Assembly: GCA_021323675.1 (NCBI GenBank)
Contig: JAJPKP010000007.1
Coordinates: 1-64,000 of the forward strand
Length of the DNA stretch: 64,000 bases
Source: Pseudomonadota bacterium
Lineage (GTDB): Bacteria > Desulfobacterota > Binatia > Binatales > Binataceae
Direction: 5' to 3'
A program made the translations under genes and the position numbers. Shown in pieces: positions 51,826-64,000 of the stretch (the first letter of the stretch is position 1; the number at the start of each line of letters is the position of its first letter). Below the pieces are notes generated by a model. The model did no database searches, was not told the origin of the DNA, and worked only from the letters and a program-made list of their open reading frames with translations.

Positions 51826-52587
51826 CTACGTCGCGCTGATTAACAACTCTTCGCGCGCCGCACACGCATCTATCTCCATCTCCAATCCTGTCACCGGCGG
51901 CCGCGAATGATGGAAGCGGATACCACGAATTGCCGCTGCGCCCAGCGCGGGAAGCAGCAGCTTCTCGAATAGCGGATGCACGTCGTGAACGGTGTACAGA
52001 TTCACCGACGTCGCATCGTCCCATCGAACCTTCATCTCTCCGATCAACTCACTGAGATTGTCGAGCACGCAGGCCATTTTCCGGCCGAGTCCATCCGGAG
52101 AAACGTCTCCTCGCGCGACCAGCTCGCGCCTGCCGCCTTCGCCGGCGCGCATCTCGGCAGAGCCTGCGAGCACGTAAGCCGGTCGTGCGACGCCAGGGTT
52201 CGGGACCGTGTAATAGAAACCAAAGAGGGAAGGCTCGGCCGGAGCGTTTGTCATCGGGGCAACGTTGGTGCGCGCGATCGGATTGACTCCGTCGATCAAG
52301 ACGCCCCAGGCCGCGAGCCGTTCGAGATAGCCGCGATTGAATTCATCGAAGCCGGCAGGCGTCAGTGGAGCGGGGATGCGCAACTCGATTCCGCACACGG
52401 CATGAATCGGCCGCTGCACATCGCGCAGGTGGCGTTCGATCGATCCATAGCCGTCCGCGAGCCGGACCATCGGATGAAAACTCGCGTGCACGATCGCGAA
52501 TCCGAGATCCGCGACGGCGCCCGAAGAAAACGGCATCCCGGGCGCGGTCACGAATCGATAATTGCCTCTGGCATTCAGAGCCAACAT
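51826..52587 (-). CDS. RidA/YjgF-like family protein
   Basis: This 253-residue protein has an internal arrangement reminiscent of two RidA-fold units. The second is clearer (GGRRELVARGDVSPDGLGRKMACVL, then RWDDATSVNLYTVHDVHPLFE). ATG at 52587 is preferred to 52638, whose extension is low-complexity. The deaminase Arg is not confidently placed, so activity is unclear. It lies just upstream of the DUF2277 gene on the same strand. Confidence 0.6.
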   Translation of the reverse strand: MLALNARGNYRFVTAPGMPFSSGAVADLGFAIVHASFHPMVRLADGYGSIERHLRDVQRPIHAVCGIELRIPAPLTPAGFDEFNRGYLERLAAWGVLIDGVNPIARTNVAPMTNAPAEPSLFGFYYTVPNPGVARPAYVLAGSAEMRAGEGGRRELVARGDVSPDGLGRKMACVLDNLSELIGEMKVRWDDATSVNLYTVHDVHPLFEKLLLPALGAAAIRGIRFHHSRPPVTGLEMEIDACAAREELLISAT

Positions 52588-52641
52588 CGACCGCGCTCCT
52601 CCGCGCAGGCGCAAGACCGATGGGCTCAAAGATCCCACGAT

Positions 52642-53192: not shown

Positions 53193-53237
53193 TGGAGCCA
53201 CCGGTCGGATTCAAACCGACGACCTGCTGATTACGAA
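53193..53237 (-). other. tRNA-Thr(CGU) 3'-half remnant, probable att site of an integrated island
   Basis: Read on the minus strand, this holds the anticodon loop TTCGTAA (anticodon CGT), the 3' anticodon stem TCAGC, a perfect T-stem GTCGG/CCGAC with loop TTTGAAT, and an end GGTGGCTCCA. The expected 5' half (acceptor GCCACCG, D-arm) is absent to the right. Homology begins at the anticodon loop, a common crossover point of tyrosine integrases. The remnant's orientation puts the inserted DNA to its right. Confidence 0.75.
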
Positions 53238-53874
53238 TAAGCGTCAGGCCCCAACCACCGCGAACGACCCTGACCAAAGCCCAACAAAATCAAGGAAGCG
53301 CACCGGCTAGGTCCTCACGGTCGTTCGGCGTTTTTCGTCCGGTTACGGCACCCTATAGGCACCAACCGCGAAACTCACCGAGGCGAGGTCGCCCCAAACC
53401 CCGGCACGCACTGCGCCGACTGGATTGGCTCCGCACGCAAGGGAACGCGGACAAAGCTGCAGCCGAACAGATCTTTTCACGAAAGCTTGCCCCGAGGCGT
53501 GGAGCTTGAAAGCGGCGGCGCGGAGGTCCTCAGCCTTGATTCGGTGCCGGATCGTTAGAGTAAATGCATTTCTTGTTGGCAGTTCAGCGCAGGTGATGCG
53601 CCGGGTAAAATAGGTGGGTCGATTGCGCGGCGGCTGAATCGGCTGGATTTGGTGGGTTGGGACGGCTCACGTCAAGCCTGTCGCGATTTGAGGGCCCGAG
53701 AACCTTAGCCGAAGGTCTTCGTCGAATGATGGGACGTCTCCAGGCTACCGAAATTCCTTAGAATTCGACCGCGGTGGACGGCGGTTCTGGAATTTAGGCA
53801 TCCGCTTGGCGTAGCATCCCGGTTGGTCTAAAGGGCAGGAGAGAAAACTGAGGGGCCGGCGGGTCCTTGCGGCG
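53238..53874. other. 637-bp region with no credible gene
   Basis: No frame here shows domains or a good ribosome site; the best open frame (62 codons near 53425-53613) lacks features. No integrase is found at this end of the island. It may hold the promoter for the next gene or decayed phage or plasmid sequence. Confidence 0.5.
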
Positions 53875-54561
53875 ATGTTTCATAAAGAAGCTGACATGAT
53901 GCGACCGGTGGTGCGGTGGATGAAGGCTGCTGGCCTGACAGCGAGGTCCGAATTTGTGACTCCTTGGGGTGTGTGCGATCTCGTCGGTCTTCGCTTCAAT
54001 GCCAATAATCTTGCACGGCGCATCCGGCTGAAGCAGACGCGCGCGGTTAGTTCAATCACCCGAGCAATGATTCTTCTTGAAATTCCGGACGTGGAAACTC
54101 GAAGGTTTGTTACGCTTGAGAAGCTGAGGCGCCATTGGACAGGCTCCTTCCGTGAGGAGACCATTCGAAGGGAGACTGACAGGCTCATCGCCGATGGGTT
54201 CGTGATTCTTTCCCGAAAAAGCCGCCTGCAGAAGATCAATGGCTGGATGCCACTACAAGATCGGTTGGTCGCTGTGGAGTTAAAGCTCTCCAGAATCGAG
54301 GAGGCCATGCGTCAGGCGTTGAACAATGTGGCTTTTGCCGATGAATCATACGTTGCTTTGCCGGACGCTATTGCCAAGCGCGTCGCGTCTCGCCCTTCGC
54401 GTTGGTCAAGGTTCTTTGAGGCCGGGGTGGGATTGCTGGGCGTGACTCCTCACCGGTGTCGGGTGGTGGTTTCACCCAAGAAGGCCGAGCAATGGAAGGA
54501 TAAGCCCGTTCAGTTGTATTGCGTTGAAAAGTTCTGGAGAAGCCGGCTTAAAGGCAACTAA
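53875..54561 (+). CDS. PD-(D/E)XK-like nuclease candidate with inserted winged helix
   Basis: The protein has 228 residues. Elements of a restriction-endonuclease fold can be read: Glu5 in the first helix, Asp35 in GVCDLVGL, and Glu135-x-Lys137 in VAVELKLSR followed by helix IEEAMRQALNNVAFADESYV. About 95 residues between Asp and ExK contain a winged-helix-like stretch (VTLEKLRRHW ... ETDRLIADGFVILSR). The family is not recognised. It lies first in the island and converges with an unknown gene (14-bp overlap). It may be a nuclease of a defence module. Confidence 0.6.
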   Translation: MFHKEADMMRPVVRWMKAAGLTARSEFVTPWGVCDLVGLRFNANNLARRIRLKQTRAVSSITRAMILLEIPDVETRRFVTLEKLRRHWTGSFREETIRRETDRLIADGFVILSRKSRLQKINGWMPLQDRLVAVELKLSRIEEAMRQALNNVAFADESYVALPDAIAKRVASRPSRWSRFFEAGVGLLGVTPHRCRVVVSPKKAEQWKDKPVQLYCVEKFWRSRLKGN

Positions 54562-55717
54562 GCATGAGTGGCTCAGCCACGGCTTCCGGACGGCGAGCTG
54601 TGCCTTCATCGGGTAGATCTGGGAGTGACTTGCCTAGTGCGTATGCTGCCGATAAATCCTGAAACAATGCCATCGACCGGCCAGATTTGGGTGCATTCGC
54701 TATAAGGTCAAGCCACCGCTTGTAAAACGCAGCAACCTGCTCACGGGAAGTATCAGGGGAGATCAAGTTACCGTATTGTTTTTTGATGTCGTTGAACTCT
54801 ATGTACGCTGGATGGCTGGTGCCTAACTTAGTAAGTGCTGTATCCAGCCAGGCTCTGAGTTGAATGCTAACGCTAACCCTCCGCCTTAGCGATGGCAGCA
54901 CAATTCGTACGCTCGGCGGCATTGCGTGACCGCCGGCCAGAAAGTATTGGTACCCAGAGCCAATTCCTATCGCAGGATAGTCGACCAAACCCCTTGACCA
55001 CAACACCAGGTTTAGTCCCCAGTACGGGCCTGCTATTCGGATTCTGGATGGAATTCGTTCATTGAGTTCCTGATGTAAGGCAACAATTCCCGGCAGACGC
55101 CTGTTTCTGAGAGTCGCGGATCCACTGTCGTCAACTAAGCTTCTTTCGACAACCCAAAGACCGTCTGCTTGAGATTCGTGATAGCACTTCTCGGCCTGCT
55201 GTACCTTAGGATTCCTTGCAGTTTTACCATTGACCTGTTGCTGATGCGTAAAAATTAGAGGCAAAATAAGTTTTCCCGAGAACCCCTTATCCCTTTTCCA
55301 CTTTCCCGCGGCGACTGCTAGTGCCCGATTGATTTTGTTGCGGTCAGAATTTGTGACCAATGGTATCTGCGGAACACTAATCCAGGTGGGTTTGTATGAC
55401 GCGCACTTGTCCAAGATAGCGTCAACGAAAGCCTGTACTTCTGAGGCGATCGGCCTTTCCTGGAATGTCGGCTTCGCAACATCTTCGAATTTTGCAAAGC
55501 CTTTCATGAAGGTGAACCAGGGCCGGTCGCGACGCGCGTCGGGATCGTCCATGCCGTCCACACACGCGTCCAACCAGATTTTAAAGGTCGGACGCAAAAG
55601 TGGAACTAGGCTTGCGGCTCGATCTAAAGGGAGCCGCGCAACCTCCGAATCCGCATACAGTCTCTGCGCGATTCTCGCCCCGTCGTCACTCGTTATAAAC
55701 GGAATTTGCTCCGCCAT
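54548..55717 (-). CDS. Unknown protein, partner of the FRG gene
   Basis: The 389 residues begin at ATG 55717, which has GAGGAG at ideal spacing; the frame upstream to 55738 would overlap the FRG gene. No domain is recognised. Conserved-looking blocks are PTWISVPQIPL, GPYWGLNLVLWSRGL and GIGSGYQYFLAGG. It starts 7 bp after the FRG gene, so the two form an operon and probably work together. Confidence 0.7.
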   Translation of the reverse strand: MAEQIPFITSDDGARIAQRLYADSEVARLPLDRAASLVPLLRPTFKIWLDACVDGMDDPDARRDRPWFTFMKGFAKFEDVAKPTFQERPIASEVQAFVDAILDKCASYKPTWISVPQIPLVTNSDRNKINRALAVAAGKWKRDKGFSGKLILPLIFTHQQQVNGKTARNPKVQQAEKCYHESQADGLWVVERSLVDDSGSATLRNRRLPGIVALHQELNERIPSRIRIAGPYWGLNLVLWSRGLVDYPAIGIGSGYQYFLAGGHAMPPSVRIVLPSLRRRVSVSIQLRAWLDTALTKLGTSHPAYIEFNDIKKQYGNLISPDTSREQVAAFYKRWLDLIANAPKSGRSMALFQDLSAAYALGKSLPDLPDEGTARRPEAVAEPLMLSCL

Positions 55718-55724
55718 CCGCTCC

Positions 55725-56540
55725 TCACAAGCCCGCACTTCTCTTTAGGTGAGAGCACACATGTTCCGGCTCCGGAAAGATGAACATCTCACCGATGCCG
55801 ACGCGCTCCAGCTCGTTTAGCAGGCCCCTCTTGTATTCGCGCAAGATGGGCACATACAGCAGCGAACTGGCCTGGGCGCGATCCAATGCAAAGCTTTTTG
55901 ACCCATGAAGCGTGAACACGCCCTGTTGTAGGGCGATCCGTTCGGTGTTCCAAGTTGGATTGATTGCGATGGTGCGCTTTCCAGCTGGTCGCACTTTACC
56001 GTCGAGTTTGAAATAAGGCTTTATGATGTTGGCATCTCGCTCCATGTTAAAGACCCGCGGCGATCGGGCCTCGACGTTTTGGTTCAGCTCGATGGGATTG
56101 AGGATAACAACTAAGCCGTCTGAGTCGGGGTCCTTGCTACAAGCGAAGAAGAGTGCAACAGCTGCATTCTGAGTCCAGTCTAACAATCGCGTGGGCAGTC
56201 CATAGTGTTGTGCGACCTGCATCCAGCCAAGATCATCATCAGGAGCGGGAGGACGACCTAGTTTCATGTCGAGAAAGCGCTTCATATCAGCCAAGAGATG
56301 GAGCGCCGCGTCTCTTTTTTCCTGCGCGGCGTAACGAAGGGCTGAAGGTGCGAGAGAATGCGTGAGCTGCGGATGACCCCGAAACCAGAAGATTTTGTTT
56401 GGCTCTAACAGGGAGTGAAACACACCAAAAAAATCGCTCAGTGTGGAAATCAGTTGGTCTTGAAACATTGGGCAGTCTATCGGACAGGCTCTGTATCGGC
56501 GAATGAGGTCTCGACGGGTTTTCGGTGTTGTCGGAGGCAT
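55725..56540 (-). CDS. FRG-domain protein
   Basis: This 271-residue protein contains the FRG domain: FWFRGH (51-56) with the Phe-Arg-Gly that names it, MQVAQHYGLPTRLLDWTQNAAVALFFAC (107-134, in pieces), and a beta-rich tail. FRG proteins recur in defence islands and toxin-like contexts; a nucleotide or NAD-related activity has been proposed but not proven here. It is upstream of an unknown partner in a two-gene operon. ATG at 56468 is an alternative start. Confidence 0.85.
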   Translation of the reverse strand: MPPTTPKTRRDLIRRYRACPIDCPMFQDQLISTLSDFFGVFHSLLEPNKIFWFRGHPQLTHSLAPSALRYAAQEKRDAALHLLADMKRFLDMKLGRPPAPDDDLGWMQVAQHYGLPTRLLDWTQNAAVALFFACSKDPDSDGLVVILNPIELNQNVEARSPRVFNMERDANIIKPYFKLDGKVRPAGKRTIAINPTWNTERIALQQGVFTLHGSKSFALDRAQASSLLYVPILREYKRGLLNELERVGIGEMFIFPEPEHVCSHLKRSAGL

Positions 56541-56613
56541 TTTCTATCAATCAGATGTGACGGCAAGTTGCCCCATTAACATTAGGTGTTGCCTGCCTTC
56601 GTGGACGCACGAT

Positions 56614-57066
56614 TCAAGACCGCAGCGGGATCGCATGTTGCCCGACCCAACGCACCCAGGGCAGTTCGTTCCTGACCGTGTTCCAGAGGCGTTCATCCGC
56701 GGTCCAGCACTCGCATTGTCGGGATTCCGCAAGGGCCAAGTAGTGCGCGTCGTATGCGCTCGGCAGGGAAAACCGCTCCATAATTTCCAGAGCGCGAAGA
56801 TTGACCGCAACGTCGTTCTCCAGCGCTGGCCCATTCTCCAACAGGAATGCTAGGCGTTCCTTGGCGATCTCAAGGCTCAACTGGCCCCGTTTTACCCGTT
56901 TCGCGAGGGCATTGGTCGCCTCATAGGCAAACAGCGCCGGCGCGGTTAGGCGCCGACGCTGTTTCTGCCACTTTTCTAGAAGCTCCGATGCTTCGTCACT
57001 GTACGGCTCCCGCTCGATCCACTTAAGCGCGAGGCTCGCATCGACGACCACTTCGTCGGCGCTCAC
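56614..57066 (-). CDS. vapC: PIN-domain toxin, VapC-like
   Basis: This 150-residue PIN ribonuclease has acidic residues in VVDASLALKW, FAYEATNAL, YDAHYLALAE and TADERLW, fitting the four-carboxylate Mg2+ site. It is preceded by a RHH antitoxin gene with ATGA overlap (57063-57066). VapC toxins cleave tRNA or rRNA when the antitoxin is lost. As part of the island it could stabilise it. Confidence 0.88.
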   Translation of the reverse strand: MSADEVVVDASLALKWIEREPYSDEASELLEKWQKQRRRLTAPALFAYEATNALAKRVKRGQLSLEIAKERLAFLLENGPALENDVAVNLRALEIMERFSLPSAYDAHYLALAESRQCECWTADERLWNTVRNELPWVRWVGQHAIPLRS

Positions 57067-57365
57067 AGTTGGTTATCACGCTCCATCCTGGCTTCGCGGA
57101 TCAGGTCTACAGAGTCCTCCGGAAAGGGCGTGGGTTGTTGGGCGCGGAAGGTGGCGAAGCGGCCTAGCGTCTCGGTCGTGATGGTGCCATCGGCCTTTTT
57201 CTTGAGTACCCGGCCCGCCGGCACCGAGCGATCGAGGAGGCGCGTCACATAGGCCGAGACTGAAAGGTCTTGGGCGGCTGCCGCCACCTTGATGCGGCGC
57301 CGTAGCGCGGGAGGTATATCAAGCGTAAGCCGGGGCCGGTTCGTCTTGGTGATAGATCTTGCCAT
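57063..57365 (-). CDS. vapB: Ribbon-helix-helix antitoxin, VapB-like
   Basis: This 100-residue protein has an N-terminal RHH fold (PRLTLDIPPALRRRIKVAAAAQDLSVSAYVTRLLD in pieces) and a C-terminal tail expected to neutralise the toxin. It overlaps vapC by ATGA. A promoter with a short dyad lies upstream, suggesting autoregulation. Confidence 0.82.
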   Translation of the reverse strand: MARSITKTNRPRLTLDIPPALRRRIKVAAAAQDLSVSAYVTRLLDRSVPAGRVLKKKADGTITTETLGRFATFRAQQPTPFPEDSVDLIREARMERDNQL

Positions 57366-57384
57366 CGTCTGATACCGTTTTCCC

Positions 57385-57428
57385 GCTAATTTAGCTACAT
57401 TCTACACGATTGACGCTTTCGGTGTCAT
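57385..57428 (-). promoter_or_regulatory. Candidate vapBC promoter and operator
   Basis: On the minus strand ATGACA (57428-57423), 18 bp, TAGAAT (57404-57399) resembles a sigma-70 promoter. Just downstream GCTAATTTAGC (57385-57395) is a 5+1+5 dyad that could bind the antitoxin. Confidence 0.5.
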
Positions 57429-57466
57429 GGCGTCAGAGGGGTCGAAAATCTTGAGAGGAGAGACCG

Positions 57467-58882
57467 TTGGAAGCACGCGACCGCCGTCTTCCCGATTGGT
57501 TCATTCGAATCCGAACCGGTCAAGTTCGATTGCCGCGATTTCAGCGCTTCGAGGCGTGGAGCCATGATCGAGTCGCCGCTTTGCTTGAGACGGTGTTAAG
57601 GGGTTTGCCCGCTGGGGCTGCATTGATCCTTGAGGTCGGTGATAAAGAACCGTTTAGAAGCCGCTCCATTGTAGGGGCGCCGCAGCCAACTGAAAGGGTC
57701 ACGGAGCATCTCCTGGATGGCCAGCAAAGGATAACCGCGTTGTGGCGGAGCATGCACGATAACTATGAGGATCGAACCTATTTTGCCTACTTCGAGCCCG
57801 ACGAGGAACACGACGGAGCGGTGATTCCTAAGGTCTATGGACAGCCACGCTGGTGGCGGAACGGAACGCGCTATCCTGTCTGGGCGGACGATCCAGTAAA
57901 GATTGACGCGAAAGGATACGTCCCCGTGAGTCTGCTAAGGCCTAGCGATTTTGACAAGGACATTACTGCTTGGTGCAAAACGGCGCTGGCAGGTAATGCC
58001 GAGGCGGTCCTCGATCTCAAGGACAGGATTAACGACCTTCGGAAGCGAGTCAGTGAGTTCAATCTGCCGTTTCTTTCTCTGCCGATTGGTACGGCTAGAG
58101 ACGTGGCGCTCGACGTGTTCATCAAAATGAACACGAGCGCAGTTCCTCTCAGCGCGTTCGATATCGTCGTGGCGCAGGTCGAAGATGCCACGGGTCGATC
58201 ACTGCACGAATTGGTAGGGTCTCTTAGAGCCAAAGCGCCGCAAGCAGATGCCTATGGCGACGCGTCCGATTTCATGTTGCGAGTGGCCGCGATGCGCGGC
58301 GATCGTCCGCCGACTCAAGCGAGCTTCTTGCGACTTGACTTCGACAGGCTGGTTGCTGATTGGGAGAAGATTGTAGATGGCATCAGCTTTGCCACCGATT
58401 TGCTCGACCAAGAGCGCATTTACGATGCCGAAAGACTGCCGACAGATATCGTAATTCCGGTCCTCTCTGCCCTTAAAGATGATGTTCCCCCGGCATTGGA
58501 CGAGCGCGGTAACGTGCTGACACTTCTCAGGCGTTACATCTGGCGTGCTTTCCTCACGCGTAGATACGAAAGCTCCGCCGGGACGCGCTCTTTGCAGGAC
58601 TTGCGCGGCCTTCGAAGCGCGATCAAGGGGAACTCTGACCCAAAGGGAATACCGATCTTTGATGAAAGCGAGTTTCCGCTGCCGACTATAGACGAGATAA
58701 AGAGAGCCCGCTGGCCTAAAACGCGGGACATACTGGCGCGAGGAATCTCGGCCATTTCCCTTCGCGAAGGTGCGCTCGACTTGGCAGACGGTACGCCCGC
58801 AAATCGAACCGCCTTGCCGCATCGAGACTCCAGGGCTGCTGGCCTCGAGGCTAACAATGATGAAATCTCTGGCCCCATCTAG
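57467..58882 (+). CDS. DUF262 protein with C-terminal HNH part missing
   Basis: This 471-residue protein starts at TTG (57467) after AGAGGAG. The ParB-like DUF262 domain shows LPRFQRFEAW (22-31) and DGQQRITAL (84-92), plus FIKMNTSAVPLSAFDI later. In related proteins the C-terminus carries a DUF1524-like HNH after a stretch like GTPxxRxxLPxR. Here that stretch (ADGTPANRTALPHR) is followed by only about 20 unrelated residues and a stop. The nuclease part is therefore truncated or frameshifted. Confidence 0.75.
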   Translation: MEARDRRLPDWFIRIRTGQVRLPRFQRFEAWSHDRVAALLETVLRGLPAGAALILEVGDKEPFRSRSIVGAPQPTERVTEHLLDGQQRITALWRSMHDNYEDRTYFAYFEPDEEHDGAVIPKVYGQPRWWRNGTRYPVWADDPVKIDAKGYVPVSLLRPSDFDKDITAWCKTALAGNAEAVLDLKDRINDLRKRVSEFNLPFLSLPIGTARDVALDVFIKMNTSAVPLSAFDIVVAQVEDATGRSLHELVGSLRAKAPQADAYGDASDFMLRVAAMRGDRPPTQASFLRLDFDRLVADWEKIVDGISFATDLLDQERIYDAERLPTDIVIPVLSALKDDVPPALDERGNVLTLLRRYIWRAFLTRRYESSAGTRSLQDLRGLRSAIKGNSDPKGIPIFDESEFPLPTIDEIKRARWPKTRDILARGISAISLREGALDLADGTPANRTALPHRDSRAAGLEANNDEISGPI

Positions 58883-59042
58883 AGGCGTTCCGCTGGGAAC
58901 GACGTGGCACGATGGCGTTACTGTTGTGCCTTCTATTGCGAACTGAGCGCCAGCGCCAGCCAACCTAAGAGCCTGCGACATGCTACGGCTCCAACGTCAA
59001 TGCCTGTGTCGACGCCCCCATTGACTGTTCCTGCTGTGTCAG

Positions 59043-59072
59043 TGCATTGTTCGTGCATCGTCGTACGATGCA
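59043..59072. promoter_or_regulatory. Three-half-site operator over the RHH gene start
   Basis: TGCATTGT (59043), TGCATCGT (59054) and the inverse ACGATGCA (59065) start exactly 11 bp apart. The last two form a 19-bp dyad with a 3-bp spacer, overlapping the ATG at 59068. A TTGACT at 59021 with CATTGT 18 bp on could be the promoter. RHH repressors bind such arrays. Confidence 0.65.
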
Positions 59073-59313
59073 AGGCACACTGACCATCCGAATAGACGCG
59101 ACGCTGAAGCAAAAGGCCGAGGAGAAAGCCGCCGCAGAGGACGAGACCCTTTCGCAAGTGGTGCGGCGCGCTCTTCGAGAATACGTGTCCCCGCGCCATC
59201 CCTCATCTGCCCCCCGCGGACAAAGTGCGCTCAAGTCGCAAACACGCATAACGCCGAAAAGCCGCAAGTGCCATAGCACCCGCATGGTCAAAGGGAGGAA
59301 ACCGGAACAATGA
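59068..59313 (+). CDS. Ribbon-helix-helix regulator
   Basis: This 81-residue protein has an N-terminal RHH motif: strand GTLTIRID, then helices LKQKAEEKAAAE and LSQVVRRALREYV. The C-terminal half is basic and probably disordered. ATG at 59068 lies inside its own operator. It overlaps the next small gene by ATGA. It may be an antitoxin-like regulator of the small gene and of the modification operon downstream. Confidence 0.75.
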   Translation: MQGTLTIRIDATLKQKAEEKAAAEDETLSQVVRRALREYVSPRHPSSAPRGQSALKSQTRITPKSRKCHSTRMVKGRKPEQ

Positions 59314-59495
59314 ACGCCAACCAGGCCCAAACACGGGAGCGATTTAGCTACAACGATTTCATCAGCCACACACTCCAACTGAGCGGACACGGCAAATGCG
59401 GAGCTTCGGAGTGGCCGTACGACGTCACACTGACCTCGAAACCCTGCTTCATGGGCGGGGGACAGGATAAATTCGCACCGTGTGGAATCTGCTAG
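59310..59495 (+). CDS. Small Cys-containing protein, possibly truncated
   Basis: This 61-residue frame starts with an ATGA overlap and a GGGAGG ribosome site, so it is translated with the RHH gene. Cys residues occur as KCG, KPCF and PCGIC at the end. The stop is TAG directly after CGIC; reading on would add DCQNVTPGH before a second stop, making C-x-x-C-x-x-C. It may be a zinc-binding protein cut by a nonsense mutation. No homology recognised. Confidence 0.45.
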   Translation: MNANQAQTRERFSYNDFISHTLQLSGHGKCGASEWPYDVTLTSKPCFMGGGQDKFAPCGIC

Positions 59496-59577
59496 GACTG
59501 CCAGAACGTGACGCCTGGGCACTAGCCCGATGCGCTGCGCCTCCTGCCATTAGAGAGCGGACGTGGATGCGAAGGGA

Positions 59578-60057
59578 ATGAACGGAGGATCGAGCAAGAC
59601 ACCTTCCTTTAGAGGTTTATTGGCGGCATCGCGGTCAAGTTCGTACGCGAAGAAGATGACCCGCAATTCCAATACCACCCACGAGCATCTGTTGCGGATT
59701 ACGCTTTGGAAGCGCGGGTTGCGCTATCGAAAGAACGTACCGACGCTTCCTGGAAAGCCCGATATCGTTTTCCACAGAGAGCGCGTGGCGGTATTTTGCG
59801 ATGGCGATTTCTGGCACGGACGGCATTGGCGGCGCCTATCGGGCAAGCTCCGCGCAGGAACCAACCCTTCCTACTGGACTGGCAAGATAAGCGCGAACCG
59901 CAGCCGTGACCGCCGCGTCACCCGACTGCTGAAAACCGAAGGGTGGACCGTCATTCGGATTTGGGAGACGGATATCCGCCGAGATCCAGAGCGAGTCGCA
60001 TGCATCGTGGAACGCCTCGTTCAAAGGAGCCGACGCGGCGACGATGCGATTCATTGA
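59578..60057 (+). CDS. vsr: Vsr-like very-short-patch repair endonuclease
   Basis: This 159-residue protein has the Vsr core RYRKNVPTLPGKPDIVF with catalytic Asp62, then AVFCDGDFWHGRHW (71-84), NRSRDRRVTRLL and GWTVIRIWETDI. The usual zinc Cys residues are not seen, and HGxFWH reads DGDFWH, so this is a variant branch. ATG at 59578 follows GAAGGGA; GTG at 59563 is less likely. It overlaps the methylase gene by 14 bp. It may repair T:G mismatches from cytosine methylation or serve as the restriction nuclease. Confidence 0.8.
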   Translation: MNGGSSKTPSFRGLLAASRSSSYAKKMTRNSNTTHEHLLRITLWKRGLRYRKNVPTLPGKPDIVFHRERVAVFCDGDFWHGRHWRRLSGKLRAGTNPSYWTGKISANRSRDRRVTRLLKTEGWTVIRIWETDIRRDPERVACIVERLVQRSRRGDDAIH

Positions 60058-61387
60058 TCTGTTTGCGGGACTTGGCGGGTTTCATGTCGGGCTCGCCAGT
60101 CTCGGACACGAGTGCGTTTTCGCGAGCGAACTGGATACTCATCTTCAAGAACTTTACGAGAAAAATTTCGGCCTGCGCCCCCACGGCGACATCCGCACCA
60201 TATCGGCCGATCTAGTGCCTTCCCATGACGTTCTGTGCGCCGGCTCACCCTGTCAGCCGTTCTCGAAGGCGGGAGGCCAGCAGGGCTTCGATTGCCCGAG
60301 ATGGGGAGATCTTTTCGGGCATGTGCTGCGCCTCCTCAAACACCACAAGCCGAAATTCCTCATCCTTGAGAATGTTCCCAATCTTGAGCGACACGATAAC
60401 GGCGACACGTGGTCTCAACTGCAGCGTGAACTGTGCGCCGCCGGCTACGAAATCAGCACCAAACATCTCTCGCCTCATCAGTACGGCGTTCCGCAGATCA
60501 GGGAGCGCGTGTTTATTGTCGGAAGCCGGTCAGGCCTGACGCATTTCGCATGGCCACAACAAGCGGACGAGGCCGATCTCTCTATAAGCTCCGTCCTCGA
60601 CAAAAATCCCGAAGACGCGAAACCCATTTCGTCGCACGCAAAGAAGTGCCTTCAGGTATGGCAGGCCTTCATCAAGGCATTTCCGAAAAAAGAGGAGTTG
60701 CCCTCGTTTCCCATCTGGTCAATGGAATTCGGGGCCACCTACCCGTTTGAAAAGGAGACGCCGCACGCGCTCGGGAGCCGAAGACTAAGGAAATATCGCG
60801 GTAGTCACGGAATCCCGCTTAGTTGGTATCCGGCGGCACTGCGAATGGACGGTCTGCCCTCGTATGCCTGCACCAAAGAGGACTCATTTCCACATTGGAA
60901 GGTGCTGTTCATCCAGCAGAATCGCGAGTTCTATAAGCGCCACAAGAAGTGGATAAAACCCTGGCTCCCGCGCATTCTCGATTTCCCCCCGAGCTTTCAA
61001 AAACTGGAATGGAACTGCAAGGGAGAAAAGCGCAACATCTGGGACTACGTGATCCAGTTCCGCGCATCCGGTGTCCGCATCAAGCGCCCGACGACCGCTC
61101 CGTCGCTGATCGCCATGACCACCACTCAGGTGCCAATCATCGGATGGGAGCGCCGGTACATGACTCCTCGCGAGTGCGCGCGCCTTCAAAGCCTTCATGA
61201 ACTGAAACATCTGCCGCACGCGCCCACCAGAGCCTTCAAGGCGCTTGGCAACGCCGTCAACAGTGAGTTGGTCCGTCTCATCGGCGCAAGCCTCCTGGCC
61301 CCACGCCCTGAGCACCGCGCCACTCTCACAGCGGGAGACTTTAATCGGCTTGGCCAGGCTGAGCCTGCAAACCATGCCGCAATCTGA
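60044..61387 (+). CDS. dcm: C5-cytosine DNA methyltransferase
   Basis: The 447 residues carry all main C5-methylase motifs in order: I DLFAGLGGFHVGL (5-17), IV GSPCQPFSKAG with catalytic Cys70, VI ENVPNL (109-114), VIII QYGVPQIRERVFIVG, and a late X-type LGNAVNSELV. The target-recognition region between VIII and X is about 200 residues. It overlaps vsr by 14 bp upstream and the GHKL ATPase gene by 14 bp downstream. It modifies a palindromic or short site of unknown sequence. Confidence 0.92.
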   Translation: MRFIDLFAGLGGFHVGLASLGHECVFASELDTHLQELYEKNFGLRPHGDIRTISADLVPSHDVLCAGSPCQPFSKAGGQQGFDCPRWGDLFGHVLRLLKHHKPKFLILENVPNLERHDNGDTWSQLQRELCAAGYEISTKHLSPHQYGVPQIRERVFIVGSRSGLTHFAWPQQADEADLSISSVLDKNPEDAKPISSHAKKCLQVWQAFIKAFPKKEELPSFPIWSMEFGATYPFEKETPHALGSRRLRKYRGSHGIPLSWYPAALRMDGLPSYACTKEDSFPHWKVLFIQQNREFYKRHKKWIKPWLPRILDFPPSFQKLEWNCKGEKRNIWDYVIQFRASGVRIKRPTTAPSLIAMTTTQVPIIGWERRYMTPRECARLQSLHELKHLPHAPTRAFKALGNAVNSELVRLIGASLLAPRPEHRATLTAGDFNRLGQAEPANHAAI

Positions 61388-62930
61388 GCAAAGGGCGACC
61401 CTTCCTCCCCGCGTCAGCATTCGTCCCGGCGTCGGGATCTTGTCCGTTCTCCGGCACCTGAATTACAAGGCGTGGTTCGCAATGGCGGAATTCGTCGATA
61501 ATTCTCTCCAGAGTTATCTGCAAAATCGCGAAAAGCTTCAGGGGCTTCACGGAAATGATCTCCGGCTGAAAGTCGAAGTCGAGATCGAGCGTTCCGACGA
61601 GGTCCGTATCAAGATAAGGGACAACGCCGCCGGCATTGCCACTGCCGACTATGCGCGCGCCTTCCGCCCGGCGGAGTTGCCCACGGACCGCAGCGGCTTC
61701 GCCGAGTTCGGCATGGGCATGAAAAGTGCCGCGTGCTGGTTCGCGCCCCGCTGGAAGGTCAGGACATCAGCCCTAGGCGAGCCCATCGAACGAACAATCT
61801 CCCTTGATATCGAAACTATCGTGCGCGATTCCATCGAAGAGCTCGACGTTGTGGAACACCCCGCTGGCGTCAACGACCACTTCACGGAGATCACGCTGAT
61901 CGATCCGTATGACAAGCTTCAGACGAAGACCGCCAGCAAGATCAAGGATCATCTCGCGAGCATCTATAGGATATTTCTGCGCGAGCAAGCGATGGAGTTG
62001 TGGTTCAACGGCGATCGATTGACTTACGAAATTCCGAAGATATTGGTCGCGCCATTCAAGAAGACGCCGAACGAGGAACCCCGGCGCTGGTATCGCGAGT
62101 TCAGTTTCGACTTCGGGCTTGGGCTGCGAGCATCCGGGTTCGCGGCGATCCGGGAAGTTGCCAGCACCTCCACAGCCGGATTTGCATTGTTCAGGCGCAA
62201 GCGGCTGATCGAGGGCAGCCTCGATGAGCCCTACCGGCCGGAATATGTTTTCGGCACGGGCAACTCCTACCGCAAGCAGCGCCTCATCGGCGAGATCCAT
62301 CTCGAAGGTTTCGAGGTCAGTCACACCAAGGACGGATTCAAGTGGGAAGATCATGAACAGCCGTTCCTTGAGCTTTTGTACGACGAGCTCGAAAAGCATG
62401 GCCTTCCTTTGCTTTCGCAGGCGGAATTGTACCGGGCGCGCGAGGCGCAGCGCGACCTTCGGGCCGAGGCCGAGAAAGCCAGTGCCCGCATTGCAGAGAC
62501 GGTTGAAAAGGAAGTCCCGCGTGTTCTCGAAGAGCAAGCCGCCGCGCGCCCGTTTCTTGAGCCTCTGCCGGCAGCGGCTCCGCCCGATCGATCGGCCAGT
62601 TCGCGGCTCATCGAAGTCGACCACCGCGGAGCGAAATGGCGCATCACGATCGAATTGGCAATGGACCCGGCCATCGAGGATTGGATTTCCATCGCCGACA
62701 AGCCGGCGGAACGCGGACAGCCTCGGGCCATCACCGTCCGTATGTCGCTCGCCCACCCATTCATGCAACAATTCTGTCGGGCGGATTCCGAGGAGATCGA
62801 GGCGCTGGCGCGCGTTGCCGCCGCGATAGGGCTTGCCGAGATAACGGCTCGCGACGCGGGCGTTCCGCAATACGGCACCATTCGCCGCAATATCAATCAG
62901 CTCTTGCGGGAGGCCCTCTCGAAACCATGA
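61374..62930 (+). CDS. MORC-like GHKL ATPase
   Basis: The protein has 518 residues. N-terminal Bergerat-fold motifs: N-box AEFVDNSLQSY (Glu39, Asp42-Asn43), G1 DNAAGI (83-88) and G2 FGMGMKSAA (112-120, with Lys117). An S5-like region may follow (about 200-330), then a charged helical part (around 370-440) and a small C-terminal domain. The FGMGxKSAA form resembles MORC/MutL-type ATPases rather than histidine kinases. The longer frame from 61245 is antisense-like to the methylase tail and rejected. A Z1 gene follows 12 bp later. Confidence 0.87.
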   Translation: MPQSEQRATLPPRVSIRPGVGILSVLRHLNYKAWFAMAEFVDNSLQSYLQNREKLQGLHGNDLRLKVEVEIERSDEVRIKIRDNAAGIATADYARAFRPAELPTDRSGFAEFGMGMKSAACWFAPRWKVRTSALGEPIERTISLDIETIVRDSIEELDVVEHPAGVNDHFTEITLIDPYDKLQTKTASKIKDHLASIYRIFLREQAMELWFNGDRLTYEIPKILVAPFKKTPNEEPRRWYREFSFDFGLGLRASGFAAIREVASTSTAGFALFRRKRLIEGSLDEPYRPEYVFGTGNSYRKQRLIGEIHLEGFEVSHTKDGFKWEDHEQPFLELLYDELEKHGLPLLSQAELYRAREAQRDLRAEAEKASARIAETVEKEVPRVLEEQAAARPFLEPLPAAAPPDRSASSRLIEVDHRGAKWRITIELAMDPAIEDWISIADKPAERGQPRAITVRMSLAHPFMQQFCRADSEEIEALARVAAAIGLAEITARDAGVPQYGTIRRNINQLLREALSKP

Positions 62931-62942
62931 CGGAGCGATTTT

Positions 62943-64000
62943 GTGCCTAACGCCGACGGCGAATTGATAACTCCCCAGGAGGAGCTTCCGCCAGGGAGCC
63001 GGTGGCTTCCCGTTCGGGGCGCTGAAGTCCGAGACCTTCTTGCTCACCTCCAGCTTGATGACCAGAGCACCGAGCGCCTGGTCTCCGAAGCGACCACCAT
63101 CCTCAGCAAGTGCCTGCCGCCTCATGGCGCCGCAGATTCGACGACCGGTCTGGTTCTGGGCTACGTTCAAAGCGGCAAAACCATGTCGTTTACGACGGTC
63201 GCCGCACTCGCCCGCGATAACGCGTTCCCGATGGTCATCGTCGTCACGGGAGTCAGCAACCCGCTGCTTGACCAGTCGACACGACGGCTTGAACAGGACC
63301 TTCGCCTTCAGGAAAACCGCAAATGGCGCCTGCTCCGCAATCCCAAGCCCATTGATCGTCATGCAATCAGCGACGTGCTCGCCGACTGGCGGGACGGGAG
63401 GCTGCCGGAACATCGCCGCAAGACTGTTCTGATCACAGTCCTTAAGCAAACAACCAACCTTCGAAACCTCATCCGCGTGCTCGAACAACTCGACCTTTCG
63501 ACATTACCCGTCCTTGTCATCGACGATGAAGCGGACCAGGCCGGACTGAATACTCGCGTCGGCCAGGCGACGCCGAGCACTACCTACCAGCGTCTCGTGG
63601 CCCTGCGGCAAAACCTGCCGCATCACGCCTACCTCCAGTATACGGCCACACCGCAAGCGCCGTTGCTTATCAACATCATCGATGTCCTGTCTCCTGAATT
63701 CGTCGAGCTCCTGACCCCCGGCCCCGACTATGTCGGAGGACAGACTTTCTTTGACGAACGACCGAACCTTGTGCGCGTCATACCGGCGAACGAGATCCCA
63801 GGCCGCAACGCGGCGCCTCAGTGCGTGCCGCCCTCGCTGATCGAAGCTTTACGCCTGTTTTTTCTAGGAGTGGCGGCCGGGTTTACGCTAGCCGAGGATC
63901 AACTCCCCCGCCGCAACCGCTCGATGCTTGTTCATCCATCGCGAGAGACTGCCGGCCACAGCCAGTACTTTCACTGGATCACGCAGATCAGGCAGCAATG
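62943..64000 (+). CDS. Z1-domain ATPase/helicase-like protein, cut by the window end
   Basis: GTG at 62943 opens a frame that stays open for 352 codons to the window end. P-loop GYVQSGKTMS (about 63159-63188) and Walker B VLVIDDEADQA (about 63510-63540) with a DDEAD box identify the Z1-type superfamily-2 ATPase, as does LQYTATPQAPLLI. It lies 12 bp after the GHKL gene. In MORC-type restriction systems Z1 ATPase and GHKL ATPase act with a cytosine methylase. The C-terminus and any later nuclease are beyond the window. Confidence 0.88.
   Translation, partial: MPNADGELITPQEELPPGSRWLPVRGAEVRDLLAHLQLDDQSTERLVSEATTILSKCLPPHGAADSTTGLVLGYVQSGKTMSFTTVAALARDNAFPMVIVVTGVSNPLLDQSTRRLEQDLRLQENRKWRLLRNPKPIDRHAISDVLADWRDGRLPEHRRKTVLITVLKQTTNLRNLIRVLEQLDLSTLPVLVIDDEADQAGLNTRVGQATPSTTYQRLVALRQNLPHHAYLQYTATPQAPLLINIIDVLSPEFVELLTPGPDYVGGQTFFDERPNLVRVIPANEIPGRNAAPQCVPPSLIEALRLFFLGVAAGFTLAEDQLPRRNRSMLVHPSRETAGHSQYFHWITQIRQQ

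Follow-up and report, generated by a model that had tools for sequence, protein, structure and literature searches.

What brought a group of restriction, toxin-antitoxin and FRG-type genes directly behind a partial tRNA-Thr gene in a Binataceae genome is the question that this locus raises. The window, i.e. the whole stretch of 64,000 nucleotides that was analyzed, corresponds to bases 1-64000 of contig C33 (82,422 bp) of a genome of 4.59 Mb in 87 contigs. This source genome is designated G000, and other G-numbers refer to relatives that belong to the Binataceae unless stated otherwise; in the NCBI taxonomy, the Binataceae are placed within Candidatus Binatota. Behind the partial gene, which is a genuine tRNA-Thr(CGU) scar, lies a defense island, an arrangement of an ordinary kind. 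The parts worth following are the tRNA gene as an apparent insertion hotspot and a three-gene cassette next to the scar, termed FRG-g2-g1. The locus also links a defense island of a poorly studied phylum to an exactly defined attachment site.

The tRNA-Thr(CGU) scar and its intact counterpart

The plus strand of the window at 53193-53238 is the reverse complement of a tRNA-Thr(CGU) 3' half, which extends on the minus strand from the CCA end to the anticodon loop, where the match to the intact gene ends. The intact tRNA-Thr with anticodon CGT was detected by ARAGORN on contig C85 (1542-1617, minus strand), and the scar is identical to it at 44 of 46 positions, with two mismatches. The second-best place for the scar within the window reached 26/46, and the best scores in 20 random windows generated by a first-order Markov model were 25-28/46. 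A genome search (E<=0.001) located the tRNA-Thr(CGU) 3' end at two places in G000, the scar and C85. The initial annotation had placed such a half, 45 bp long (53193-53237), at a change of gene content. This observation is confirmed, with restriction, toxin-antitoxin and FRG-type genes to the right of the scar, and only the outer limit needs to be moved by one base, to 53238, where the clean match ends.

The G+C content drops at the scar, as is typical for tRNA-integrated islands: on the left side, all 2-kb blocks between 30 and 52 kb have values of 0.60-0.63, the block with the scar has 0.586, the blocks between 54 and 62 kb have 0.53-0.58, and the final block has 0.607. The partial and the intact copy of the same tRNA, a further hallmark of such islands, have consistent orientations and reside on separate contigs (C33 and C85). 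An insertion into the tRNA 3' half places the element to the right of the scar and to the left of the intact gene. The cargo in the window does lie to the right of the scar, and thus the orientation that was initially proposed is correct. The intact tRNA-Thr(CGU) that this orientation predicted elsewhere in the genome does exist. It was expected at the right end beyond the window; its orientation fits this position, but it lies on another contig. In two relatives, contigs stop exactly at the tRNA-Thr 3' end (L054, G008:C19; L065, G018:C9), which would be the outcome if the assembly broke at the repeated tRNA half.

A conserved element end adjoining the scar

Directly to the right of the scar lies a conserved element end that resembles an attR arm (53230-53366, plus strand) and shows 72-91% identity to its counterparts in relatives. 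Over its ~130 bp, it is 91% identical in G003, which belongs to another genus, 83% in both G008 and G027, 76% in G060 and 72% in G005. By DNA search, it was found in 7 of the 41 family genomes, G000 included. A profile built from 8 copies recovers these 8 copies, an additional one in G011 (E=3.8e-9) and weak matches in three more genomes; at E<=0.01, the profile detects the element end in 12 of the 41 genomes. The element end directly follows the tRNA-Thr half in G000, G008 and G027, and it is adjoined by sequence other than a full tRNA-Thr half in G001, G003, G005 and G017. From its sequence, the scar together with the ~130-bp element end would constitute an attR-like junction, which we assign to the GGTGCC class of repeats described below.

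In G060, an integrase gene, a tRNA-like half and the element end are contiguous, and the GGTGCC class therefore probably belongs to this integrase. C-terminal pieces that are 58% and 57% identical to it are located beside the tRNA-Thr of G001 and G025, respectively, and its nearest match in G000, among the fetched loci with all six integrase matches included, is 28% identical. The G060 arrangement itself (L076:5139-6498 on G060:C103) is attP-like or tandem-junction-like, and the integrase reading frame runs through the tRNA-like part. Two other interpretations of the element end were discarded. A structured RNA is not supported, as RNAalifold predicted four pairs at -0.2 kcal/mol with no compensatory changes in eight sequences. 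ARAGORN reported a tRNA-Lys in the G060 copy, and because its D and anticodon arms are poor, this was taken as a chance fold and not as part of a real tRNA.

Arm-like repeats and insertions at tRNA-Thr

The element end contains an arm-like repeat pair, GGTGCC-N5-GGTGCC (53347-53363, minus strand), which recurs beside the intact tRNA-Thr of G001, G003, G011 and G030, and with a spacing of N6 in G025. Repeats that are one helical turn apart and located beside an attachment site resemble arm-type integrase sites. The search for tRNA-Thr covered 35 family genomes, and the 130 bases following the gene were surveyed for repeats in the 22 genomes in which sufficient sequence was available, with one site each. 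At 20 of these 22 sites, a 6-mer or longer sequence repeats at a spacing of 10-13 bp, while mononucleotide shuffles predict 1.7. Clear arm-like repeats, starting 47-50 or 64-70 bases from the tRNA, are present at 17 sites and comprise the GGTGCC class (G001, G003, G011, G025, G030), the GTGCCC class (G023), the GTGTCC class (G000, G007, G016), the TGTCCG class (G002, G004, G009, G010, G013, G017, G027) and a class of its own in G015. The repeats in G014, G020 and G021 may have arisen by chance, and G005 and G012 lack an exact repeat and display imperfect copies by eye. Apparently, tRNA-Thr is an insertion hotspot in the Binataceae, with a single gene being used by several element classes across the family.

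The two ends in G000 belong to different classes, with GGTGCC in the element end at the scar and GTGTCC beside the intact tRNA, and for this reason they need not be the ends of one island. The classes likewise differ in G017 and also appear to differ in G005, where the tRNA side is imperfect, and in G027, where the element end is imperfect and devoid of an exact pair; in G003, GGTGCC is found both beside the tRNA and in the element end. The tRNA-Thr site of G000 has seemingly been targeted by two or more different elements, and the differing classes would reflect recurrent insertions of distinct elements into a single tRNA. A third tRNA half, which would be expected between stacked elements, was not found by the genome search of G000. 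In a region of G016 (L062:9700-10090, G016:C25), a tRNA-Thr 3' part is flanked by repeat pairs that differ between its two sides, which looks like a junction of two elements.

The right end of the island, the integrase and the left flank

Beyond the window, C33 continues to 82,422 with further defense-type genes. The initial annotation considered an integrase probable at the right end, but none of the six tyrosine-recombinase matches in the genome resides on C33 or C85. Since an integrase of its own is thus missing from both contigs, the island is not classed as an integrative and conjugative element (ICE). No conjugation gene was matched among the C33 proteins that were scanned. Within G000, neither the terminal 150 bases of C33 nor the initial 150 bases of C85 match anything but themselves, and no read or contig bridges the scar and the intact tRNA. 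On C85, the gene for a VirB8-family protein (Pfam E=3.5e-27), which we take to be 'TrbF', starts ~950 bp past the 3' end of the tRNA and is truncated by the contig end. Relatives of this protein with 91-93% identity are encoded ~1.2 kb 3' of tRNA-Thr in G007 and G016.

A tyrosine integrase is encoded on C37, and it is 56-58% identical to integrases located 3' of tRNA-Thr in G012, G017 and G027. It was not assigned to the island, because the other genes of C37, a short contig (L074), look phage-like by eye. Similarly, C16 carries an integrase, the only TrbI match of G000 and a Fic protein that is 76% identical to the Fic protein of the island, but it was rejected as the missing part because no link to C33 was found. 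C16 (L116, L075) constitutes a second mobile-looking region of the same genome.

For the gene immediately to the left of the scar (51826-52638), relatives were detected in 11 of 36 other genomes. It is not close to tRNA-Thr in any of these 11, and in G021 the two are located on the same contig, ~61 kb apart. Most tRNA-Thr sites of the family look occupied, and an empty site was not found.

Origin of the island

A comparable element is present in G023 (L107-L110, G023:C274:1-65718). It is a complete element of ~50 kb at tRNA-Thr(CGU) with both ends on one contig: the intact tRNA-Thr is located at 774-849, the scar at ~50,635, and TGTGCCC pairs occur at both ends. Besides the FRG-g2-g1 cassette, it carries genes for an integrase and a TrwC relaxase as well as type ISP-like and other restriction genes.

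Based on these data, it is quite likely that the region from 53193 to the end of C33 represents the cargo end of a tRNA-Thr(CGU) genomic island and that a second, different element is present at the intact tRNA. A tyrosine-recombinase element would have entered tRNA-Thr(CGU) at its anticodon loop, restoring the tRNA at one end and leaving the original 3' half at the other end as the scar. Its cargo would consist of FRG-g2-g1, the PIN/RHH pair, a GmrSD_N protein and the Vsr-Dcm-MORC-Z1-DUF4420 operon, followed by the Fic and the Avs-like protein. An element of the GTGTCC class with a conjugation gene would now adjoin the intact tRNA, and as a result, the integrase end of the first island would have been displaced, lost or not assembled. 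The island resembles tRNA-targeted islands and ICEs in the duplicated tRNA 3' half at its far end, the intact tRNA elsewhere, the compositional shift and the defense cargo. Different from these, no integrase was found for it, its ends lie on two contigs, and two repeat classes suggest stacked elements. Points that speak against this origin are the failure to find an integrase on C33 or C85, an empty site or a third tRNA half, the absence of a full tRNA-Thr half beside the element end in G001, G003, G005 and G017, and the absence of defense genes seen next to it in G017 and G060. The initial interpretation is partly supported.

Other explanations have to be weighed against a cargo end with a second element at the tRNA. 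The tRNA match could be fortuitous or a pseudogene unrelated to the change of gene content, in line with the fact that ARAGORN calls no tRNA within the window. With 44/46 versus a random maximum of 28, however, a chance match was rejected, and as the conserved element end directly adjoins the scar, an unrelated pseudogene is hardly conceivable either. A single ICE that extends from the scar to the tRNA on C85, with the defense cargo at one end and the conjugation genes at the other, would account for the presence of exactly two tRNA-Thr(CGU) 3' ends in G000 and for the VirB8-family gene ~950 bp from the intact tRNA, and such a layout is seen on one contig in G023. Yet the complete G023 element has the same repeat at both ends, whereas the ends in G000 differ in class, and the only TrbI match of G000 is located on C16 and not near C85, which renders a single ICE unlikely.

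It is also somewhat unlikely that the island is old and fixed, i.e. that the scar is a relic, the element has been trimmed by deletions and the defense genes were gathered later instead of being carried by the element. The two mismatches in the scar, the lack of an integrase on C33 and C85 and the lack of conjugation gene matches among the scanned C33 proteins are in agreement with such a history. On the other hand, the element end retains 91% identity in G003, a member of another genus, and in G023 the cassette nearest to the scar is part of a complete element that likewise occupies this tRNA.

Cargo of the island

The gene families to the right of the scar bear out the defense-like cargo that was initially noted and suggest that it serves an anti-phage function. 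Beyond the cassette, a putative PIN-domain toxin of the VapC type (56614-57066, minus strand; Pfam PIN 46.9 bits, cut-off 23.6) is encoded together with an RHH-like antitoxin (57063-57365, minus strand), whose Pfam RHH_10 score of 24.8 bits is under the cut-off of 27. They are followed on the plus strand by a GmrSD_N (DUF262-type) protein (57467-58882; Pfam GmrSD_N 66 bits, cut-off 33.2), in which Pfam matched no C-terminal domain, so that GmrSD_N is the only part of GmrSD detected, and by a ribbon-helix-helix protein (59047-59313; Pfam RHH_9 27.4 bits, cut-off 23.4).

The next genes, likewise on the plus strand, stand in one run and encode a Vsr endonuclease (59563-60057; Pfam Vsr 72.9 bits; TIGR00632 116.2 bits, cut-off 97.85), a Dcm-like cytosine-5 DNA methyltransferase (60044-61387; Pfam DNA_methylase 218.6 bits; TIGR00675 213.5, cut-off 100.65), a MORC-like GHKL ATPase (61245-62930; Pfam HATPase_c_3 48.6 bits, cut-off 25), the true start of which is probably further in than 61245, a Z1-type helicase (62943-64000, continuing to C33:65159; Pfam Z1 119.2 bits, cut-off 25) and, after the helicase, a DUF4420 protein (C33:65167-66165; 113.6 bits, cut-off 27). 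HATPase_c_3, Z1, DUF4420, DNA_methylase and Vsr all score above their cut-offs. The third type of MORC restriction-modification operon, as outlined by Iyer et al. 2008 (PMC2292703), combines a GHKL ATPase, a Z1 superfamily II helicase, a restriction-fold gene, Dcm and Vsr. The run in the island corresponds to this gene set and, with no basic difference from that outline, represents one more member, in Binatota.

Past the window, C33 encodes a Fic protein, an NTP_transf_8 nucleotidyltransferase with an AbiEii match under the cut-off, a radical-SAM protein and a protein of 1337 amino acids (C33:77985-81998). The latter resembles Avs2 (AVAST type 2) by PADLOC (E=2.3e-89), but at 209.3 bits versus an NCBIfam cut-off of 1000 for the Avs2 equivalog, it is referred to as Avs-like only. 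A glycine-rich protein of 933 amino acids with weak BNR and beta-propeller matches (C33:71537-74338; L004:7537-10338) is also located among the defense-type genes.

Six element-end loci, including the window, have readable inner sequence, and in G001 and G008 the contigs end there. Defense-type genes are located behind the element end in four of the six. In G027, PglX-, BrxL- and PglZ-like genes are found within ~16 kb, G005 has a PglX/BrxL-like reading frame and a HerA fragment, and in G003, the evidence is a fragment with weak HEC-06/Orf5 matches. No defense gene was seen by eye beside the element end in G017 and G060.

The FRG-g2-g1 cassette

The genes nearest to the scar form a rare cassette of g1 (53875-54561, plus strand, 228 amino acids), g2 (54548-55738, minus strand, 396 amino acids) and a gene for an FRG-domain protein (55725-56540, minus strand). 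Only the FRG protein matched the libraries used, with 75.3 bits for the FRG domain versus a curated Pfam cut-off of 25 and a match to the PADLOC candidate PDC-S15 (E=2.6e-48). FRG has been assigned to the ADP-ribosyltransferase (ART) superfamily, and NADase activity has been suggested for it (PMC9503650). The island protein shares with PDC-S15 and the FRG proteins of that report an FRG domain well over the Pfam cut-off. Different from FRG proteins at large, the FRG protein of the cassette is always accompanied by g2 and the convergent g1, and all its matches to plasmid-encoded FRG proteins are below 60% identity, with the best at 28-30%.

No Pfam or NCBIfam family matched g1, and g2 had no match in Pfam, NCBIfam or PADLOC. 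In g1, residues E26, D35, E135-x-K137 and Q147 are invariant in all five distinct cassettes, which suggests a PD-(D/E)XK nuclease, possibly with a winged-helix insert. The predicted structure of g1 (mean pLDDT 55) is too poor to decide on its fold, and the fold search returned nothing at E<=0.001, its top matches being weak winged-helix ones. For g2, the mean pLDDT is 39; searches of solved structures gave best E values of 1.5 for g1 and 0.13 for g2.

G023 encodes all three proteins in the same order (75%, 82% and 87% identity), and g2 is 82, 68, 63 and 59% identical in the four other loci. Among the 41 family genomes, g2 is present in G000 and G023, and a search of 395 genomes of the phylum matched only the window's own genome. 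A wide genome scan, which needs exact short peptides, yielded the record of G023 and two planctomycete metagenome-assembled genomes (L131, L132). Scans of virus collections added a further cassette, which is present in identical form in two IMG/VR records, and one FRG homologue that is cut by its contig end. The first of these scans with g2 was empty and later patterns matched, which implies that the scans miss relatives. No match was found for g2 or g1 in plasmids, or for g2 in phage records.

In all five distinct cassettes, g2 and g1 are convergent with an overlap of exactly 14 nt. On the strand of FRG, the nearest upstream gene differs between the cassettes: in the window, it is the PIN/RHH pair, in G023 a gene for an Hsp70-like protein, in L132 a DUF3303 gene, in L131 a DUF499 gene preceded by a DUF1156 gene, and on the virus-collection contig hsdR preceded by a type I specificity gene. 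A restriction-type gene is thus located directly upstream of FRG in two of the five. DUF1156 methyltransferases are found in BREX-related systems (PMC12839542). In L131, the next gene beyond g1 encodes a tyrosine integrase. A literature search, conducted mostly short of full texts, retrieved no description of a three-gene FRG-g2-g1 cassette.

These features allow a tentative proposal, for which we see a modest chance of being correct. FRG-g2-g1 could be a compact mobile defense unit that is placed behind varied restriction systems as a second line and acts as a fail-safe: when restriction fails, FRG by NAD+/ADP-ribose chemistry and the convergent nuclease g1 would serve as effectors that arrest the infected cell or cause its death, and g2 would act as a sensor or scaffold. 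The unit would move between phyla on integrase-borne elements, and element families stacked in one tRNA-Thr would build the Binataceae defense island. The layout is fixed in two phyla and on a virus-collection contig, and the cassette is short enough to be cloned and tested. By eye, the FRG homologue at the contig end in the virus-collection record (L159:3438-6804) is located near a serine recombinase-like gene.
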